A stretch of DNA of 64,000 bases from Paenibacillus brasilensis. Lineage in GTDB: Bacteria > Bacillota > Bacilli > Paenibacillales > Paenibacillaceae. Under the pieces are notes generated by a model, which worked only from the letters and a program-made list of their open reading frames with translations, searched no databases and was not told the origin of the DNA. The position numbers and the translations under genes are program-made. Shown here in pieces: positions 1 to 21,495 of this stretch (position 1 is its first letter; each line of letters opens with the position of its first letter). The DNA is taken from the NCBI RefSeq assembly GCF_009363115.1, contig NZ_CP045298.1:2200001-2264000 (forward strand), in the 5' to 3' direction.

Positions 1-419
1 ACACGCTGACGCATCCCTTTCGATAAGCGGTGGACTTTCTTTTTGCGCTCTCCGCTTAAGTTTACAAACTGCAGCACCTTATCGATCGAAGATTTAGGAA
101 GATCATATAACTTACGATACAGCTCCAGATTTTCCTCAATCGTTAATCTCTCATATAGACCGCTGTTATCCGTCAAAATGCCAAAGCGCATCTTCTGCGC
201 AGACTGATGCATCATCTCCGCCGGCTGGTTAAATACTCTTGCCTGTCCGCTTGTCGGATTTAATTGCGCCGTTAAAATCTTAATTAATGTCGTTTTTCCC
301 GAACCACTCGGACCCAGAAAACCAAAAACTTCCCCTTTCGGAATGGAAAAGGACACGTCCGACAACGCATCCTTATTTCCAAACCGCTTTCGAATATGTT
401 CTACTTGGATCACATCCAT
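1..419 (-). CDS. ABC transporter ATP-binding protein, N-terminal part (runs off window)
   Basis: The first 139 residues of an ABC ATPase are visible; the rest lies left of base 1. The Walker A motif GPSGSGKTT is near residue 40, and the signature LSKGMRQR is at the window edge. The spacing fits a drug- or bacteriocin-type exporter ATPase of the CcmA/BcrA class. The start is the ATG at 419, with GGAAG about 9 bases upstream. The LytTR/ABC-like regulator immediately upstream on the same strand suggests that the two form a transporter-regulator unit. The substrate is unknown. Confidence 0.85.
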   Translation of the reverse strand, partial: MDVIQVEHIRKRFGNKDALSDVSFSIPKGEVFGFLGPSGSGKTTLIKILTAQLNPTSGQARVFNQPAEMMHQSAQKMRFGILTDNSGLYERLTIEENLELYRKLYDLPKSSIDKVLQFVNLSGERKKKVHRLSKGMRQR

Positions 420-557
420 GAACACCACTTCCTTAGCGTTGATGCCTTAAGCATATAAAGATTGCTTGCTTCGAGCCATCAAAACCCACCGAAATGTAGC
501 TATTGTCGCCTGAATGGTACCATGGAATGCTTGATTGGTTTGATATTGCCCCGGAAA

Positions 558-1493
558 TTAAATGTTAAGAAGTGCTTTTAATTCATGCAATTTTGAACGG
601 GATAACGGAACCACGGAATCTTTACCTGTATTTAATCGCAAGCTGTAGCTATTCTTCGTCCATGTAATAATCTCTCTTACTTTTTGCAAGTTAACGATGT
701 AGGATCGATGACACCTAAAAAATCCGAAATTTATCAATCTCTGCTCGAGCTCGGTTAGCGTCAAAGCACAGACATAATTTTCTCCACCCACATGAACTAG
801 GATCGAACCATCCATACTTTCTATGTAATCGACTTCAGGCGGATCAAATAAAATCGCTTTGTCATTTCTTTTCGTATAAATCTTCTGCAAGGTGATATTG
901 GCCCGATCTTGTTCCGGCACTTCCTGCTTATCCTCTTCCGAGTCCCGAATATCCAGTGGACGAAATCCGAATTCGTTCAATCGATAAATGGCATCACAGG
1001 AAATCATGGCATCCTCTAAATTCGAAGTTAAAATTAAAATCTGCTTCTCTTTCAAAAGGTCATCTAAAATCCGTTTAAAATGACATCGATCTTCTTCTTC
1101 CAAGTAAAAATAGGGCTCCTCCAGTACAAGTGTAGGCTGATGCGCAAAAAAGACACGCAGCAATGTCACATACATCCTTTTCGATGAACTTAGATCCTTG
1201 ATTTTTACCTTTCGTTCCTCCTTTAAAGAAAAATAATCCATTAACAGAGCGACACGCTCATTCCTCTCCGTTACTTTGATTAAAAAAGTGATCAGCTCTT
1301 CCACCGTTAAACGCATATACTCGTTTTGTTGAGCTCGAAATAAATAATATTGGGAATGATCCTCTAATTGATTCATTAAAAGCTGCTTTCGCTTCAAGTC
1401 CGTTATAATACCAATCGATTGGTTCGATGTCATATTTAATTCGATCTTCGGTAGAAACAATTTCCCATTATAATAGATTGGTTGAAATTGCAT
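558..1493 (-). CDS. Degenerate ABC-ATPase domain fused to LytTR DNA-binding domain
   Basis: This 311-residue protein has two parts. Residues 20-180 look like an ABC nucleotide-binding domain: a signature-like LSSSKR is followed by a Walker B-like PTLVLEEP and then by LTSN where the switch region would be. The expected Walker A GxxGxGK[ST] is missing, replaced by LKRKQLL. Residues 205-311 are a LytTR domain (DYIESMDGS, FFRCHRSYIVNL). The domain is known from response-regulator-type DNA binders. The start ATG has AGGAGG six bases upstream. It precedes the partial ABC ATPase gene and probably regulates it; loss of Walker A suggests it binds nucleotide weakly or not at all. Confidence 0.8.
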   Translation of the reverse strand: MQFQPIYYNGKLFLPKIELNMTSNQSIGIITDLKRKQLLMNQLEDHSQYYLFRAQQNEYMRLTVEELITFLIKVTERNERVALLMDYFSLKEERKVKIKDLSSSKRMYVTLLRVFFAHQPTLVLEEPYFYLEEEDRCHFKRILDDLLKEKQILILTSNLEDAMISCDAIYRLNEFGFRPLDIRDSEEDKQEVPEQDRANITLQKIYTKRNDKAILFDPPEVDYIESMDGSILVHVGGENYVCALTLTELEQRLINFGFFRCHRSYIVNLQKVREIITWTKNSYSLRLNTGKDSVVPLSRSKLHELKALLNI

Positions 1494-1944
1494 GCCGTCC
1501 TCCTGGTCAGTGCCCCTATAGGATATATAACAATTATAATGTAGGGATACTTTTTTTGTCAGTTTCTATTGAAAAATATAACGGCATGTCTTCTCTAAGC
1601 CATATCAGTATATTTTGACCATAGAATAGATATCAACGTTGAATAAAATCGCCTGCACACATATATTCAAACCCATGCCCCGCAAGGAAAGCCGCAAAAA
1701 AATTTGCCCCTACTTATGATACGGTTCACCTTAACGGGTCTATCGGCGAAAAGTACGAAAGGAGCTGCCGCGGCATGCTCCTTTGTTGATGTTCTTATGG
1801 ATTTTTATTTTCATATCTGCACGACAGGCTGACGACTCGGTGCCGAGGCACTTCGAAAAGTCGGCTTTTTTATTGATCTACCTTGTAGAGCTGACCGGCA
1901 CGTTATCATACTCCCCAAATCTCATCAAGAACAAGATCCCGCTA
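1494..1944. other. Intergenic stretch with the first rlmH-end repeat and hairpins
   Basis: No convincing gene is seen here. The stretch holds the rlmH-end direct repeat at 1710-1730. It also holds a hairpin with arms AAAGGAGC/GCTCCTTT (1758-1784), and a second hairpin region around 1829-1873 that ends in AAGTCGGC plus a T run on the + strand. A short open frame from 1783 has no ribosome binding site and no recognisable product. Confidence 0.6.
1710..1730 (-). repeat. rlmH 3'-end-like direct repeat, copy 1 (candidate att site)
   Basis: The + strand reads TACTTATGATACGGTTCACC preceded by C. On the - strand it encodes G-E-P-Y-H-K-stop (TAG), the same as the RlmH C-terminus at 6340-6360, but no rlmH gene is attached. 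The 20 bases TACTTATGATACGGTTCACC are identical to copy 2. Staphylococcal SCC elements insert at exactly this rlmH end; that these are att sites is inference. Confidence 0.75.
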
Positions 1945-2742
1945 TCAGTACCTTTTTGGCTTTGACATGCGTTCCATGATCAAAGCTACCCTGCGTCTGC
2001 TAAAAAATCGGATCATTTGAGCCATAAGGTAATTGTTACGGCCATCGATGATATAGCTGCGTCCCTGATCAATCCCGCGAATTCCTGCCTGTACAACCTT
2101 CTCCGGGGTCGAGAGCTTTTGACCCGCCCCCATTTCCTCACTGCCGACCGCATCGAAAAACCCCGTCTCGGTTGCACCTGGGCACAGTGCGAGCACGCGA
2201 ACGCCTCGCCCGCGCGTTTCCGCCCATAGCGCCTCAGAGAAGGACAATACAAATGCTTTGGTAGCCCCGTAAACTGTAGAATAAGCACAAGGCATAAACG
2301 CGGCCATCGAAGCCACGTTAACGATGACTCCGTCCTCTCGCCTCAGCATATTAGGCAGCAACCGATGCGTAAGATCGACTAACGCAGCCGTGTTCAGCAT
2401 AATCTCTTCCTGCTCGCGCTCCGGGTCTATTTCCTCGAAACGGCCATAAGTGCCAACGCCTGCGTTGTTGATGAGAATATCGACCGACAAGCCCAGTTCG
2501 GAAATTTGTTCGGCCAGTTGACGCGGGGCATTCGCTTTGGACAAATCACAAGCCAACGCATATGCCTTCACGCCATACTGGCGGTTTATTTCCCCAGCCA
2601 TTGCATCCAGTTTGTCCTTGGAGCGCGCTGCCAGAACGACATGACAACCTCGTGCCGCCAGTTCTTTGGCATACGCTTTCCCGATTCCGGATGAAGCACC
2701 GGTGACTATAGCTAGCTTGTTTCTATATACATACTTGTTCAA
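1945..2742 (-). CDS. Short-chain dehydrogenase/reductase (DltE-like)
   Basis: A 265-residue classic SDR. The NAD(P)-binding TGASSGIG is near residue 18, NNAG near 95, and the catalytic Ser plus YGATK (Y-x3-K) near 150-165. AARSKDK after the second strand suggests NADPH. It resembles the DltE/COG0300 group; the substrate is unknown. Start: a GTG at 2751 is only two bases from AGGAGG, so the TTG at 2742 (about 11 bases away) is preferred. It is divergent from the XRE regulator at 2993. Both lie between rlmH-end repeats 1 and 2, so they may travel as one cassette. Confidence 0.85.
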   Translation of the reverse strand: MNKYVYRNKLAIVTGASSGIGKAYAKELAARGCHVVLAARSKDKLDAMAGEINRQYGVKAYALACDLSKANAPRQLAEQISELGLSVDILINNAGVGTYGRFEEIDPEREQEEIMLNTAALVDLTHRLLPNMLRREDGVIVNVASMAAFMPCAYSTVYGATKAFVLSFSEALWAETRGRGVRVLALCPGATETGFFDAVGSEEMGAGQKLSTPEKVVQAGIRGIDQGRSYIIDGRNNYLMAQMIRFFSRRRVALIMERMSKPKRY

Positions 2743-2992
2743 AAGAAACACAACCTCCTATCGATAGCACTGCTCTGATGTAAATTATCTTAATAGTACC
2801 GTGGTAGGAGGGTGTTAGCCACAGCATGACTATTACTATTAACGGGAGTAATAGCATCGGTGCTCGTTATGGTTCTCTTTTGTGGCAACCGACAATTGGC
2901 ATAGATTATAATGATCATGTACGAAGTGCTTTTGGTCCATTTGGTTAATAACGATATATATTCTTCCATATGAGTAATTAGAGGTGACCTAC

Positions 2993-3871
2993 TTGAAAAC
3001 AAATCGTTCCCCATCCACATTGGGTGAATTCATGAAATCGCGCAGGGAACGGTTGCAGCCTTCAGAGGCGGGAATCCAGCCACTGCCCGGACGAAGACGC
3101 ACTCCTGGGCTTCGAAGAGAAGAAGTCTCTTATCTTGCCCATATAAGCGTGACTTACTATACCTGGCTGGAGCAAGGTAAGGAGGTGAATCCTTCGCCGG
3201 AAGTGCTGTTAAGTATCAGCAAAGCGCTTCAGCTTGACGAAGATGAGCAGAAGCATCTGTTCGATCTGGCCAATGTAGACGCGACGAGCGTCGTCACAGT
3301 GCCGAATAGCGGAGGGCCGGATGCGGAAGTTTTACAGAAGATCGTAGATCAACTGCATTATCCTTCTTTTATCACGGACGAAGGCACGGATGTTATCGCC
3401 TGGAATCGAGCGGCAGAACTGATCGTAGCCGATTTCGGCAGTCTGCCGGATAACGAACGGAATATGATGAACATTATGTTTTTAAAGCCGGATTACCGCA
3501 ACAGACTGGTGAATTGGGAAGGCTTTGCCCGTTACTCCGTAGCGGTTCTGCGGTCAAGCTTTGACCTTTACAAGGACAACCCGTTGTATATGGAAAGGTT
3601 CGAACGCTTGAGACGGGAAAGCGAGGAATTCGTGCATTTCTGGGAGCTATATGAGATTAAGCAAAAGCGCGTAGCTACCGCTTTATTTCGTCTTCCTGAC
3701 GCACAGGAGATGGAGTTCGCACTCCATTCTGCGGCTGTCATTGATAACGATCCGGGACTGCACTGGTGTTTCTTCGTTCCGGTACCCGGTTCTGGCACGG
3801 AGGAGAGATTATTCCGTTTACTGGAGCAGGATAGGCAGCTCCATAGACGGTTACTCCCGTTAATAGAATAA
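2993..3871 (+). CDS. XRE-family regulator with MmyB-like ligand-binding domain
   Basis: A 292-residue protein. An N-terminal helix-turn-helix (residues 10-90) contains RRRTPGLRREEVSYLA and the motif TWLEQGKEV.PSPEVL. A C-terminal MmyB-type domain with FITDEGTDVIAWNRAA follows. This family usually controls an adjacent, divergent oxidoreductase gene, here the SDR at 1945-2742. A TTG at 2993 has GAGGTGA five bases upstream and is preferred over the GTG at 2984, which lies within that binding site. A hairpin terminator follows at 3898-3935, just before rlmH-end repeat 2. Confidence 0.85.
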   Translation: MKTNRSPSTLGEFMKSRRERLQPSEAGIQPLPGRRRTPGLRREEVSYLAHISVTYYTWLEQGKEVNPSPEVLLSISKALQLDEDEQKHLFDLANVDATSVVTVPNSGGPDAEVLQKIVDQLHYPSFITDEGTDVIAWNRAAELIVADFGSLPDNERNMMNIMFLKPDYRNRLVNWEGFARYSVAVLRSSFDLYKDNPLYMERFERLRRESEEFVHFWELYEIKQKRVATALFRLPDAQEMEFALHSAAVIDNDPGLHWCFFVPVPGSGTEERLFRLLEQDRQLHRRLLPLIE

Positions 3872-3897
3872 ACGTTATGTGGCTTCCACGGCAACTG

Positions 3898-3935
3898 ATA
3901 TGCTCCTCTACCTGTTTATTTAAAGGGGAGCATAT
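3898..3935 (+). terminator. Hairpin terminator after the MmyB-like regulator
   Basis: ATATGCTCC pairs with GGAGCATAT around a loop of about 20 bases. It is followed by TAAAA rather than a strong T run, and it also sits at the end of cassette 1. Confidence 0.55.
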
Positions 3936-3947
3936 TAAAACTTGCCG

Positions 3948-3968
3948 TTACTTATGATACGGTTCACC
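3948..3968 (-). repeat. rlmH 3'-end-like direct repeat, copy 2 (candidate att site)
   Basis: The + strand is TTACTTATGATACGGTTCACC. The - strand encodes G-E-P-Y-H-K-stop (TAA). The 20 bases TACTTATGATACGGTTCACC are shared exactly with copy 1, and copy 2 matches the true rlmH end at 18 of 21 positions. All three copies are preceded by a TTGC-type sequence. It separates two SDR-plus-regulator segments. Confidence 0.75.
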
Positions 3969-4070
3969 ATATCACTTGTGAGACGAAAAATAAGCCTTCT
4001 GATTCAGAACGCTTTAACAATATCTGGATTCTTTCCATTCGCTGGACCTTCCACATGCCTAACGACCAAA

Positions 4071-5048
4071 TCAATCCTTTTCGATCTTCTCTACTATGGG
4101 GCTAGTTCTCAATGCTTTGATGTCTTTAAAAGGAGGCGATCCAAAAAGCCTGCGATATTCCATGCTAAATTGTGATACATTTTCATAACCGACTTCCATA
4201 GCGGCTGCAGTTATATTAAATGCGCCACTCAGTATAAGACGTCTTGCTTCCTGAAGGCGAAGCTGCTTTTGATATTGTACAGGTCCCAAAGTTGTAACGG
4301 CTTTGAACTTATGATGTAGACCAGAAACGCTCATATTTGTTAATTTTGCCAGTTCCTTTATGGTAAAAGGCTTAGAATAATTCTCTTTGATCCATGCAAC
4401 GGCTTTGCCAATCCCATCTTCTTGCCGATCGATCATGAATTGTTGAAAAAAAATGTGACCGGCATCCCCCGAGAGCAAATGAAAGATCATCTCGCGTTTC
4501 ATAAGTGATGACAAAAAACCGACTTCATTCGGGTTCTCAACTAGCTTGAGCAAACGAAATAATGATTCCACCAAACCTTCGTCGGCTTTCCCGATATATG
4601 CTCCAGTCTTCAACTTTTTGTCCCTTGGGCCGAATTGAATACCCGCCTCCATAACCACAGAAGCGATATCTTCCATCGTAAAATCAACGCGCAGACCGAT
4701 ATAGGGCGACTGCTTTGTAGCCCCAATAATTTCAGCAGATGCCGGAATATCGATAACAGATACCAAGTAATCTCCTGCACGATAATCAATGACCTCTTGA
4801 CCAAGATGAAGTTTCTTGGCACCCTCTAGAATCAGACAAATCGATGGAGTCAAAACACCAGAGATTTCCGAGGTCTGTCGACTATACCGCATTGTCGTTA
4901 AAAACGGAATCATCGTCTGGGTACGACCCTCGTCAATGGTGATCCGTTTCGCAATTTCCAACATTTGATTCAAATATGTTTTTGATTGGGTGCTTTCCGT
5001 ATATAACTGTCCGTAATTGATTTGTTGTTCTCCCACATCATTCACCAA
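4071..5048 (-). CDS. AraC-family transcriptional regulator (AraC_N type)
   Basis: A 325-residue protein. The N-terminal half (about 30-190) resembles the AraC_N cupin-like domain (PSICLILEGAKKL, YRAGDYLVS). The C-terminal third has two helix-turn-helix motifs, including FTIKELAKLTNMSVSGLHHKFK and AAAMEVGYENVSQFS. This subfamily often sits next to and controls an SDR or aldo-keto reductase, here the divergent SDR at 5266. The start is uncertain: TTG (5048) and GTG codons lie close together without a strong ribosome binding site. It is in cassette 2, between rlmH-end repeats 2 and 3. Confidence 0.85.
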   Translation of the reverse strand: MVNDVGEQQINYGQLYTESTQSKTYLNQMLEIAKRITIDEGRTQTMIPFLTTMRYSRQTSEISGVLTPSICLILEGAKKLHLGQEVIDYRAGDYLVSVIDIPASAEIIGATKQSPYIGLRVDFTMEDIASVVMEAGIQFGPRDKKLKTGAYIGKADEGLVESLFRLLKLVENPNEVGFLSSLMKREMIFHLLSGDAGHIFFQQFMIDRQEDGIGKAVAWIKENYSKPFTIKELAKLTNMSVSGLHHKFKAVTTLGPVQYQKQLRLQEARRLILSGAFNITAAAMEVGYENVSQFSMEYRRLFGSPPFKDIKALRTSPIVEKIEKD

Positions 5049-5265
5049 CTTTTACTTTGAAGAATCCTCAGAAGCTCGTTAACAACCATTCAGGTTCGCT
5101 TCGAAACCTTTCTTGTAATAATAACTTAATCCTGGTCAAGGGCAAAGGGCGCTTTTTATCATTTGCAGTTTTGAGCAAGTTTTAAGCAGAAACAAACTAT
5201 TTCAATATATCAATTTAAGTCATAATGTCCTTGAGGTTAGAAAATCAAGAAAGAAGGGAATCACA

Positions 5266-6219
5266 ATGTCGGAATCCTCATTGATCACAACCCCATTCCA
5301 TTCCAAATCGACCGCAAGCGAGGTTGTTTCGGGGGTCAATCTTACTGGTCGCAGAGCTGTTGTAACTGGAGCTACATCCGGAATCGGCCTTGAATCGGCA
5401 CGAGCTCTGGCTGAAGCAGGTGCCGAAGTCACATTGGCTGTTCGCGACATCAACACAGGAAAGCTCGCTGCCGAAGATATTGCTGTAACCACGGGTAATC
5501 CACTCGTTAAGGTGATGCCATTAAATCTTATCGATCGATCCTCCATAACCTCATTCGTTGCTTCATGGAGAGGACCGCTCCATATATTGATCAACAACGC
5601 CGGTATCATGGCAACGCCTGAGATGCGAACCCCTGAGGGATGGGAATTTCAGTTCGCTATCAATCATTTGGGACATTTCGCTCTTACCACCGGACTTCAA
5701 GATGCTCTAGCTGCTGCAGACGGCGCCCGTGTGGTCTCAGTTAGTTCCGCGGGGCATCTCCGCTCGCCGGTGGTGTTCGATGATATTCATTTTCTGCGTC
5801 GTCCCTACGACCCGTTTCTTGCCTACGGTCAATCCAAAACAGCTAATATATTGTTCGCTGTGGAAGCTTCAAAACGCTGGGCTAACGACGGGATCACCGC
5901 AAACGCTTTGATGCCTGGCGGTGTGCGCACCCCCGGAGTTGCCCGTATCCAAGTCACTCCCGAGGAAATCGCAAAGTTAAACGAGACTAGAACAGGCTAT
6001 CCAGAAATCATCTGGAAGACCCCGGAGCAGGGAGCGGCTACTTCTGTACTATTGGCAACGTCCCCCTTGTTAAACGGTATCGGGGGGCGATATTTTGAGA
6101 ATTGCAACGAGGTTGGACCCCAAGATTCAGGGAATCAGTCGGGTGTCGCCCCTTACGCAATTGATCCCGAAGCCGCCGTTAAATTATGGGAGCTTTCAAC
6201 AGGGATGATTCATAGCTAG
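5266..6219 (+). CDS. Short-chain dehydrogenase (retinol-dehydrogenase-like SDR)
   Basis: A 317-residue SDR with an N-terminal extension of about 25 residues. TGATSGIG is near residue 35, NNAGIMATP near 110, and catalytic Ser (SVSSAGH) plus YGQSK near 160-190. The HLGHFALT segment is typical of the RDH/WWOX-like group. The start ATG has AAGGGA about 7 bases upstream. It is divergent from the AraC regulator at 4071-5048, which probably controls it. A hairpin terminator follows at 6262-6289. The substrate is unknown; an AraC-SDR pair often responds to toxic aldehydes or quinones (inference). Confidence 0.85.
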   Translation: MSESSLITTPFHSKSTASEVVSGVNLTGRRAVVTGATSGIGLESARALAEAGAEVTLAVRDINTGKLAAEDIAVTTGNPLVKVMPLNLIDRSSITSFVASWRGPLHILINNAGIMATPEMRTPEGWEFQFAINHLGHFALTTGLQDALAAADGARVVSVSSAGHLRSPVVFDDIHFLRRPYDPFLAYGQSKTANILFAVEASKRWANDGITANALMPGGVRTPGVARIQVTPEEIAKLNETRTGYPEIIWKTPEQGAATSVLLATSPLLNGIGGRYFENCNEVGPQDSGNQSGVAPYAIDPEAAVKLWELSTGMIHS

Positions 6220-6261
6220 CTCATGATTTTAAGAATAATCACGTAGCACCAACCTGAATAG

Positions 6262-6289
6262 AGATCGGAGGAATCCCGCTCCCCGATCT
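6262..6289 (+). terminator. Terminator hairpin after the cassette-2 SDR
   Basis: AGATCGG pairs with CCGATCT, followed by TCTTC. It lies between the SDR stop and the rlmH stop, so it separates the convergent genes. Confidence 0.6.
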
Positions 6290-6339
6290 TCTTCGGTTCT
6301 ACCATTTTATAGCACGATATAAGTACTCAATTTTTTGCG

Positions 6340-6360
6340 TTATTTGTGATACGGTTCCCC
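6340..6360 (-). repeat. rlmH 3' end: third copy of the repeat, probable attB-equivalent
   Basis: This is the genuine end of rlmH, encoding G-E-P-Y-H-K-stop. The + strand is TTATTTGTGATACGGTTCCCC, three substitutions away from copy 2. Together with copies 1 and 2 it gives three direct repeats spaced 2238 and 2392 bases apart. Confidence 0.75.
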
Positions 6361-6819
6361 TCGATTAATCTTCACCGCCCGATAAATCTGTTCCACCAGC
6401 ACCAATCGCATCAACTGATGCGGCAAGGTCATTCTTCCGAAGCTCAGCTTCTGCTGGGCGCGGCGAAGGACTTCATCAGAGAGACCGTGACTACCGCCAA
6501 TGACGAAGACAACATGGCTTGTACCGTAGGTTCCGAGCTTGTCCAATTCCTCTGCGAGTTCTTCCGAGCTCCACAATTTGCCGTTGATGGCGAGTACAAT
6601 CAAATGTGCTTCACTTTTCACATGAGCAAGGATGCGCTCTCCCTCTCGTTCCTTGACCTGTCGAACCTCCGCCTCGCTCAGTGTGTCAGGAGCCTTTTCG
6701 TCCGCTACCTCGATCATTTGAAACTTGATGTATGGCCCTAGCCGTTTAGCGTATTCCTGAATCCCCATGACCAAATACTTCTCTTTTAACTTTCCCACAC
6801 CTATAAGTTGAATAAACAA
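6340..6819 (-). CDS. rlmH: 23S rRNA (pseudouridine1915-N3)-methyltransferase RlmH
   Basis: A 159-residue SPOUT methyltransferase, the usual family length. Motifs visible: [28 protein letters not shown] (SAM-binding knot), [20 protein letters not shown] and the conserved end NRGEPYHK. It methylates pseudouridine 1915 in helix 69 of 23S rRNA. The start is a TTG at 6819, preceded by AGGGG about 9 bases upstream. Its last 21 bases recur at 3948 and 1710, which marks the gene as an integration target, as orfX/rlmH is for SCCmec. Confidence 0.95.
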
Positions 6820-19971: not shown

Positions 19972-21495
19972 CTATCTTAAATACGTCATTGGATCTTGTG
20001 GTGAATTATTTTTACGGATCTCGAAGTGAACATGCGTGCCTGTTGAGTGTCCTGTACTTCCCATAATACCAATGGCTTCACCCTGCTGAACAACCTGTCC
20101 CACATGAACCCCGATACTGCTCAAATGTCCGTAGACCGTTTGATAGCCGTTGCGATGATCAATCATAATGACATTACCGTAGCCATTCTGCTGACCCGCA
20201 AATGTAACGACACCTTCATCGGAGGCCTGAATGGTATGATCGCCAACCAAATCAACACCTTCATGCATACGTCCCCAGCGTCCACCGAAGCTGCTCGTCA
20301 TTACAGCACCCGCAGTCGGCCAGGCAAACTGGCCTGAGCCTTCTCCCTCGACCTTCGTTCCTCTCAGAACCACCTCGGTAAGAGACGGCTGCAGCACCTT
20401 TTGACCGAGCCATTCCTCTTGCACGACCTCACCGTTCTCCTTGGTCAAACGGTAGTCCATTTCTTTAAGACCTGCTTGTCCCGGTCTGACGACTTTGGTA
20501 ACCCCGGCCTTCAATTCATCACTCTGACGAATCTCAACCTCAGGCTCGATGGCAATCTGCTCGACGACCTTCTCTACCGTCCGTACCGTGACTGGGGCCT
20601 TGGGTGCAGTGAGCTTGAGCTCGTCCCCGATTTGCAGATACAGCTCGCGCAGACCCGGATTGTTCTGCTTAATTTCCCAAGCAGTCATATTGAATTTCGC
20701 AGCAATGGACGACAACGAATCGCCCTCCTGCACCGTATACGTTACAGGCTCCTCGCGTCCCTCGGTCAGCACCTTCACCGCTTCTGCCTCCGTCAGAACC
20801 TTGTTAGGGTCTGCCTTCACATGCTCATATGCAATTTTCTCACGGATACTCGCAGACTCCAGCCACGCTTTATGCGTCTTGGTACTGGCACTAGCGTGAC
20901 TGCTGCCCACCGACGTCTTGCGAACCAATCCCTTAATACCTGTAGCCTTACCCTCACCCGCAGGTGTGTATTTCTTCTGTACTTGCTTTAACGCCGCCTG
21001 TGCAGTCGCTTTATCCTTCACAATGCCAATCGTCTTTCCGTTGACCTTCACTTCAACCCCTTTGGCATACGCTGTCAACATACCGTCCAACTTCTTCAGC
21101 GTGGCTGAGCTATCAATATTCGCTTTATACGCCTTTTCAGTGGTTGTTGTTACCGCACTCGTATTAAGCACCATATCCACGCCCGGATACTTGGCCTTAT
21201 ACTGCTTGCTCTTTGCAGCATACAGCTGCTTGAGCTGTTGCTCATTTAGGATATTCCCAACTTCGACGCCCTTTACATACACTTTATAATAAGGCACCGT
21301 GTTGGCCCCGACATATTGATTGCCAGCAAAAATAAGACTGCCTGCAATCACTACACCGCCTGCCGTCCAGCTCAACCACTTTTTCCGTCCGTTCCACCAT
21401 GTAGCTATTGTTCCCGCTTTGCCAGTAGAATTACCTTCAACGCTTGAATTCTCATTCTTGTCGTCTGGTGAATACTTCCCCTTAGAAACCTGCAT
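19972..21495 (-). CDS. M23 peptidoglycan endopeptidase with LysM and G5 domains
   Basis: A 507-residue protein. There is one membrane helix at about 38-58. A LysM domain ([18 protein letters not shown]) is near 255-300 and a G5-like domain ([13 protein letters not shown]...LVL) near 310-385. The C-terminal M23 metallopeptidase has ligands in HEGVDLVG and HVHFEIR. It cleaves peptide cross-bridges in the wall. Its place upstream of walR on the same strand suggests it belongs to the wall-homeostasis cluster. The terminator between them indicates separate transcription. Confidence 0.9.

Follow-up and report, generated by a model that had tools for sequence, protein, structure and literature searches.

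Tandem cassette-chromosome-like segments behind rlmH in Paenibacillus brasilensis and its relatives

The rlmH locus and the spread of its repeats

We analysed a window of 64,000 nucleotides from Paenibacillus brasilensis (bases 2200001-2264000 of the 5.61-Mb contig NZ_CP045298.1, in a genome of 5.64 Mb), in which short segments lie in tandem behind the gene rlmH. This gene (6340-6819, minus strand) encodes a protein of 159 aa with the C-terminus GEPYHK-stop, and its 3' end is the target site for the segments. The protein is 98% identical to those of Paenibacillus sp. BJ-4, P. maysiensis, P. ottowii and P. terrae, which places the host probably in the P. polymyxa group. An earlier note on this DNA had proposed that copies of the rlmH end mark off cassettes resembling the staphylococcal cassette chromosome (SCC).

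Copies of the rlmH end are found on the minus strand at 1710-1730, 3948-3968 and 6340-6360, at intervals of 2238 and 2392 bases. When a degenerate GEPYHK-stop pattern was searched for, allowing 2 mismatches, the window had just these 3 matches. With 100 shuffles of the window, the mean was 0.02 matches, the maximum was 1, and none reached 3, which confirms the three copies in one orientation that the earlier note had reported. Its statement that the last 21 bases of rlmH recur without the remainder of the gene needs refinement. The copies retain GEPYHK-stop, but they are synonymous to the rlmH end (GGGGAACCGTATCACAAATAA) and not identical; the middle copy differs at 3 and the left copy at 4 of 21 bases, with 1 base different between them. 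The 21-base ends do recur alone, but the similarity exceeds them and reaches ~25 bases on each side as imperfect inverted arms.

The count of three is correct for the window but not for the full array. Six further copies on the same strand lie left of the window (18-mer starts 2196397, 2192474, 2186910, 2185602, 2183418 and 2179552), as the earlier note had suspected when it suggested a larger array in that direction. The 18-mer pattern, GARCCNTAYCAYAARTRR, has 1 mismatch in two of the six (+19430 and +20738, with rlmH as 0). In total, the array has nine sites on one strand, rlmH and eight downstream (+2392, +4630, +9943, +13866, +19430, +20738, +22922 and +26788), and eight cassettes of 2392, 2238, 5313, 3923, 5564, 1308, 2184 and 3866 bp in 26.8 kb. 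Over the next 34 kb beyond +26788, no additional site had a score of at least 7 with the weight matrix described below. Within the window, junction 1 (6322-6360, minus strand) consists of the rlmH end (GAACCGTATCACAAATAA) and the 5' right arm of cassette 1, and its core TATCACAA is 1 base from TATCATAA. Junctions 2 (3930-3995) and 3 (1692-1757) are 66-bp sites on the minus strand that resemble attachment (att) sites. Their 18-mers lie at 3948-3965 and 1710-1727, and their matrix scores are 54.6 and 66.8.

To see how widely the site occurs, the 18-mer was counted in 75 genomes of the genus, where it had 211 matches compared to 1 for the reversed pattern. One match per genome is normally rlmH itself; 53 genomes had at least 2 matches and 29 had at least 3. 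In 149 genomes of the order Paenibacillales (27 of the genus), there were 612 matches and 10 in the control, the 10 being counted by eye. At least 2 matches were present in 111 of these genomes, at least 8 in 22, and none in 8. At 80 named rlmH loci (75 with ~10 kb downstream, the others shorter), 51 had at least one extra site in the available downstream DNA; of the extra sites, 73 have the strand of rlmH and 1 has the opposite one. The idea that these are chance or unrelated short repeats resembling the rlmH end draws on the 18-mer being short and degenerate, but it has next to no probability, since the shuffles and the reversed pattern refute it and the matches cluster on one strand behind rlmH. 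The longest array examined spans 106 kb in genome G147; counting rlmH, it has 17 exact sites (18 by matrix, giving 17 cassettes).

The array regions came from a subset of the 75 genomes, selected in most cases for having several sites. Because the genomes are related and the regions were chosen in this way, the shuffle counts given below overstate significance, which weakens the case to that extent. The tests least affected by kinship and selection are the within-pair upstream control and the contrast between half-sites within a site and at cassette ends. Eight named loci that duplicate contigs of other genomes in the set were excluded from the empty-site, matrix, hit-direction, position-linkage, half-site, codon and recombinase-census analyses. 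L092 (99.5% like G029 over 9.7 kb) was left out of the same analyses except the empty-site test, and G010 (near-identical to G009) was left out of the matrix, linkage, half-site and codon analyses.

Both complete cassettes in the window carry one short-chain dehydrogenase and one regulator, transcribed divergently. Cassette 1 (3948-6340, 2392 bp) has an AraC-type regulator with domain matches to AraC_N and HTH_18 (4071-5048, minus strand) and the dehydrogenase at 5266-6219 (plus strand). Cassette 2 (1710-3948, 2238 bp) has the dehydrogenase at 1945-2751 (minus strand) and an MmyB-like helix-turn-helix regulator at 2984-3871 (plus strand). Only the rlmH-proximal part of cassette 3 (5313 bp) is in the window (1-1710), the remainder being left of it. 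This part contains a LytTR protein (558-1493) and the beginning of an ABC transporter ATPase, and outside the window cassette 3 also has an ABC permease and a SecA-like protein. The latter (792 residues, L007:13537-15915, minus strand) lies directly behind the ABC transporter and is a possible accessory secretion gene on a mobile cassette. Cassette 4 has a FAD/berberine-bridge-type oxidoreductase and a major-facilitator transporter with a TetR-like gene, recognised by eye, between them.

Elsewhere, the median cassette size was 3.8 kb (n=78, multi-site genomes). The G147 array carries metabolic, transport and regulatory genes. In a defence scan of its 85 open reading frames (ORFs), the best 25 of 135 PADLOC families were mostly generic ATPase and reverse-transcriptase models with 1-5 ORFs each. 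No conclusion on defence cargo was drawn from these matches.

Sites also occur away from rlmH. In several genomes, site clusters lie on other contigs, and P. brasilensis itself has a second att-like pair at 4991140 and 4993334 (plus strand) bounding a 2.2-kb cassette with MarR- and DoxX-like genes (by eye). The surroundings (4.94-5.10 Mb) are rich in integrases, and just past the cassette there is a weak 30-residue match to a large serine recombinase (E 0.003). Two further att-like sites, L008:6576 (minus strand) and L008:7134 (plus strand), lie 0.56 kb apart in opposite orientation at ~5101.6-5102.1 kb of the genome, in contrast to the one-way rlmH arrays. At +1740 to +1943 in G053 (contig C1), the 3' part of rlmH recurs over 68 residues (94% identical), which exceeds the usual site in length.

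Site structure and the predicted crossover point

All junctions are imperfect dyads of ~54 bp around GAACC-TATCATAA and resemble the att sites of SCC and of the enterococcal cassette chromosome (ECC). The TATCATAA core is read in both window copies, and the genus-wide form is TAYCAYAA. A 66-base weight matrix was made from 125 sites in Python; because these sites had been picked out by the core, the matrix is biased in the columns of the core. Its consensus form is TTTGcCgtTA...GTTACGGT-GA-ACCGTATCATAAGTAAcGGcAAA. The right half-site, ACC-NTA-YCA-YAA-RTRR, corresponds to the codons for P-Y-H-K-stop. Among 198 sites, the dyad is best centred between G and A of GAACC, with a mean complementarity of 0.43 over 28 pairs compared to 0.32 for the runner-up centre.

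The same point emerged when covariation was followed position by position. The tested positions from -10 to -2 covary with the left arm only and +11 to +17 with the right arm only. Position +8 is weak (z 1.2), and -1, +2 and +5 are linked to neither arm. When whole half-sites were compared, the two halves of a single junction were unlinked (1.64 compared to 1.66 when shuffled, with 156 of 300 shuffles as high; 197 junctions, rlmH junctions excluded). The halves at opposite ends of one cassette were linked (2.74 compared to 1.62, sd 0.16, 0 of 300 shuffles; 192 cassettes). Likewise, cassette ends matched each other above shuffled pairs (14.0 compared to 11.9, sd 0.43, 0 of 5000; 66 cassettes). 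This comparison of sites shows that half-sites reassort around the GA.

The coding sequence of the rlmH end has also been preserved. In 164 downstream copies, selected with all core mismatches weighted equally, the codons for E, P, Y, H, K and stop were each retained in 152-159, and the preceding codons were less kept (Gly in 107, Arg in 53). A stricter cut of 3 mismatches gave 147 sites, with 0 on the reverse strand; in this set, the 7 positions where a change can be silent had 264 mismatches and the remaining 11 had 25. Both codon tests use an arm filter (score of at least 10) that draws on the arm columns of the same weight matrix. The buried copies lie outside the present rlmH and are nevertheless constrained, which suggests an earlier role of each right half as the rlmH end. 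An alternative explanation for the constraint is that the recombinase tolerates the same bases.

The covariation by position, the unlinked and linked half-sites, and the drop in coding constraint coincide at the GA dinucleotide, pointing to this as the place where strands would be exchanged. For a large serine recombinase, the non-palindromic GA would account for the single orientation of the arrays. Could ordinary homologous recombination or replication slippage between short repeats have built the arrays without a site-specific enzyme? The repeats are direct, and some cassettes carry longer pieces of rlmH (68 residues in G053, 29 in G041). However, sites are mostly identical only in short cores and arms, linkage is lost abruptly at the dyad centre, the halves of a site are unlinked, the dyad has a non-palindromic centre, and Ccr-like recombinases occur at the same locus. 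We therefore consider this explanation very improbable.

Movement of cassettes and the source of the recombinase

All the evidence for mobility comes from genome comparison. In an empty-site test, 8 of 132 cassettes had both flanks adjacent in another genome (16 cassette-genome pairs), with gaps of 18-79 bases; 18 bases is the gap expected of one site. The clearest case for the host is an internal one, a 1797-bp cassette of G045 (+6345 to +8142) that is missing at +26788 of the P. brasilensis array. There, the host sequence is 95% and 97% alike to the two G045 flanks over 400 bases each, with an 18-base gap. This cassette has a single ORF of 541 codons whose start is, by eye, like an RNA polymerase sigma factor, and no Ccr-like match was found in the G045 region. 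In an ungapped 60-base check of six pairs, 51-59 of 60 bases agreed on the left side. G009 and G010 were rejected as a clean insertion pair, as ~100 bases before the site also differ.

Similarity between the arrays of different genomes is often out of proportion to that of the adjoining DNA. Among the downstream-region hits of at least 500 bp between different genomes, which are not independent, 685 of 695 run in the same direction. For pairs with at least 2 kb of upstream baseline, 53 of 102 downstream segments were more than 8 points above the pair's upstream identity, compared to 39 of 3348 in the upstream control. One pair, for example, is 96.6% identical downstream and 69.3% upstream. This test took 75 of the 80 named loci, leaving out L092 and loci with at most 8 kb up to the rlmH end. 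A block that many genomes have in common beyond the array was rejected as neutral background because it is ~94% identical between species with ~70% upstream DNA (for example L085/L139). The comparison shows both clean insertion-type differences and horizontal spread of cassettes.

A recombinase was sought next to the cassettes. A profile search of the whole genome (E 0.001) found no PF07508 (Recombinase), PF00239 (Resolvase) or PF00589 (Phage_integrase) domain at 2179-2206 kb. The nearest integrase, at 2263872, is 57 kb from rlmH on its other side. Cassettes 1 and 2 contain neither an intact domain nor fragments of a recombinase gene, in agreement with the earlier note. That note had advised looking left of the window for a ccr-like serine recombinase, and gene fragments were found there but no intact gene. 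At site +22922, 17 residues match the C-terminal end of the G055 enzyme (88%, E 0.006), and 0.5 kb further a G015 enzyme is matched over 41 residues (63%, E 3e-7, with one stop). The fragments are the remains of one or two recombinase-bearing elements. Elsewhere in the host, two near-identical large serine recombinase genes lie 33 kb apart (3187968-3188807 and 3220883-3221724), the second split over two reading frames.

In the regions examined in other genomes, full-length Ccr-like large serine recombinases (at least 400 residues aligned) lie downstream of rlmH in 8 of 95, and partial ones in 13 of 95. Four enzymes (two from G015, and those of G055 and G007) had CcrB or CcrC as their best NCBIfam model with 287-431 bits, compared to 184 bits in the Ccr models for a control, a host recombinase away from rlmH. 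These scores are below the equivalog cut-off of 900 bits for both CcrB and CcrC, and the enzymes are Ccr-like but not members. Further full-length Ccr-like enzymes lie downstream of rlmH in G006, G065 and G140. In G140, a recombinase pair occupies an rlmH-proximal element of 22.7 kb, which is followed by seven matrix sites (one weak). The G147 array, searched with the four enzymes, gave only fragments of 55 and 59 residues. In G006:C7 (L160+L161), a distant full-length rlmH-like match (20645-21043, minus strand; 28% identity, E 2e-15) is located downstream of rlmH at a distance of 14 kb and close to the distal end of a recombinase-bearing element, and the element may carry its own rlmH relative.

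On these comparisons, the segments are probably passive SCC-like (more exactly, pseudo-SCC-like) cassettes that transient Ccr-bearing elements would mobilise in trans. We infer that the recombinase is Ccr-like and acts in trans, that the cassettes have a circular form, and that the host's present cassettes are still mobile. A circular cassette would carry one complete site (left half-GA-right half), and a Ccr-like large serine recombinase would exchange strands at the GA between this site and either the rlmH end or an att copy in the array. After insertion at rlmH, the right half-site of the cassette would provide the last rlmH codons and RlmH would therefore stay intact, while the earlier occupant would be shifted inward. 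Since most cassettes hold only cargo (here, pairs of regulator and oxidoreductase), the enzyme would have to come in trans, supplied by a Ccr-bearing element transiently in the same array.

Several observations weigh against this proposal. The two window cassettes have own ends that match poorly (12.0 each, next to the shuffled mean of 11.9), and neither had an empty-site partner among the genomes compared. Due to these two results, the present mobility of the window cassettes is the least certain part of the proposal. The earlier note had expected an empty rlmH site or a different number of cassettes in relatives and had named invariant sharing of the two segments as telling against it. Cassettes do vary, and the two segments are not common to all 74 other genus genomes, which are other species and not strains of the same species. 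Cassette 1 had no close match in these 74 genomes (best 69% over 770 bases). Cassette 2 has homologues of 87-88% in the rlmH arrays of G009, G010 and G071, and in G071 it adjoins part of a recombinase gene with 91% identity to the G055 enzyme over 64 residues. Another homologue, at 92%, is on a different contig (G047:C87) with no site scoring at least 18 in 16 kb; therefore, cassette genes also travel otherwise.

The remaining points against it are more general. For 7 of the 8 cassettes with an empty-site partner, rlmH itself forms the left flank, and the case therefore rests on the right flank. On the right side of the ungapped check, 27, 30, 39, 60, 27 and 56 of 60 bases agreed, where inner-end controls gave 15-29. 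Small indels or divergence account for the low values, and because agreement is so variable, the claim is carried by BLAST adjacency and not by the ungapped count. No plasmid carrier was found, as the best of 8 plasmid records matching the window cassettes covers 14% of the query, and no viral carrier, as 0 viral contigs had one exact form of the site. Some array-bearing genomes, e.g. G009, G010, G028 and G073, have no PF07508 match genome-wide; therefore, no helper is present there now. One plasmid match is to the 2.7-Mb replicon NZ_CP054613.1 of Paenibacillus cellulosilyticus (858064-858391), which has 329 bp that are 92.7% identical to part of the cassette 2 regulator (window ~3080-3408).

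Another possibility is that each segment is a full element that lost its recombinase by deletion, and that nothing moves now. The recombinase pieces in the host array, the partial recombinases in other regions and the poorly matching ends of the two window cassettes would all fit such dead remnants. We regard this as unlikely, because a recombinase-free cassette of 1.8 kb differs cleanly at an internal site between two close relatives, cassettes reach 95-97% identity between species whose upstream DNA is ~69% alike, half-sites continue to reassort, and buried copies retain their coding constraint. The earlier note had set trans mobilisation and remnants of a larger array side by side as alternatives. 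They are not exclusive, and the data favour both, i.e. a larger array with decayed Ccr-like pieces whose cassettes are recombinase-free units.

For the Paenibacillales as a whole, we lean, by a modest degree, towards an integron-like cassette economy that runs on cassette-chromosome chemistry. Recombinase-free cassettes with codon-neutral rlmH ends would be inserted at GA by visiting Ccr-like recombinases, form arrays of up to ~17 or more, and be traded between species, with the recombinase elements as helpers and the cassettes as satellites. If this is true, the SCC mechanism of methicillin-resistant staphylococci is a special case of a wider storage and trade of single genes, for which the Paenibacillales use the rlmH locus as a gene bank with a fixed address. 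It would also explain much of the variation beside rlmH, provide a natural collection of recombination sites for which the crossover point is predicted, and make the movement of ccr-less SCC elements testable in soil bacteria.

Comparison with known cassette systems

The pseudo-SCC and SCC composite islands of staphylococci are alike in their place at the rlmH (orfX) end, their tandem arrangement and their direct repeats with a TATCATAA core, and pseudo-SCC elements without ccr are known there (PMC6243372). The earlier note's proposal of SCC-like insertion is supported by the same target, nearly the same core, dyad att sites and a tandem array. Two features by which SCC elements are recognised, insertion at the rlmH 3' end and direct repeats containing TATCATAA, are found here; the array has no intact ccr genes of its own. 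Inverted repeats at the two ends of an element, a third such feature, are seen on average over the 66 cassettes compared but not in the two window cassettes. Insertion at the rlmH end without ccr, as in pseudo-SCC, is also found, and this is a likeness of working and not membership, as the term is defined for staphylococci. In contrast to the staphylococcal elements, the Paenibacillales cassettes belong to another bacterial order, are mostly a few kb in size and lie in long rows.

The ECC elements of Enterococcus share the rlmH target and have ~50-bp repeats with TATCATAA and dyad symmetry (PMC6222049). They carry their own large serine recombinase genes, ccrAB, with an example of 32 kb (PMC6222049), whereas the cassettes here have none. 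In E. faecium, a resident ECC remnant was inferred to have been excised and lost on entry of a ccr-bearing ECC (PMC6222049). Ccr and attB are treated in PMC4693430.

The closest precedent in the genus is P. pinistramenti, whose islands have the same rlmH target, large serine recombinases and more than one rlmH-end repeat (PMC10061031). We found its two recombinases by tblastn in L132. Those islands are recombinase-bearing and from one species, and the available text of the paper does not describe small recombinase-free arrays or exchange between species (PMC10061031). Tandem rlmH islands are already published for one Paenibacillus, but the long rows of small recombinase-free cassettes look new. 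A literature search without bioRxiv and most subscription journals found no paper on such arrays in Paenibacillus, which is weak evidence of absence.

Chromosomal integrons hold rows of small cassettes that have one recombination site each and are exchanged between species. The rlmH arrays work in a similar way, as rows of one-site cassettes traded between species. They differ from integrons in that no tyrosine recombinase lies beside the host array, none of the 26 PF00589 matches in the genome being within 2179-2206 kb. Their sites also differ, as they lie at the end of a housekeeping gene and are dyads in double-strand form, of the type used by large serine recombinases.

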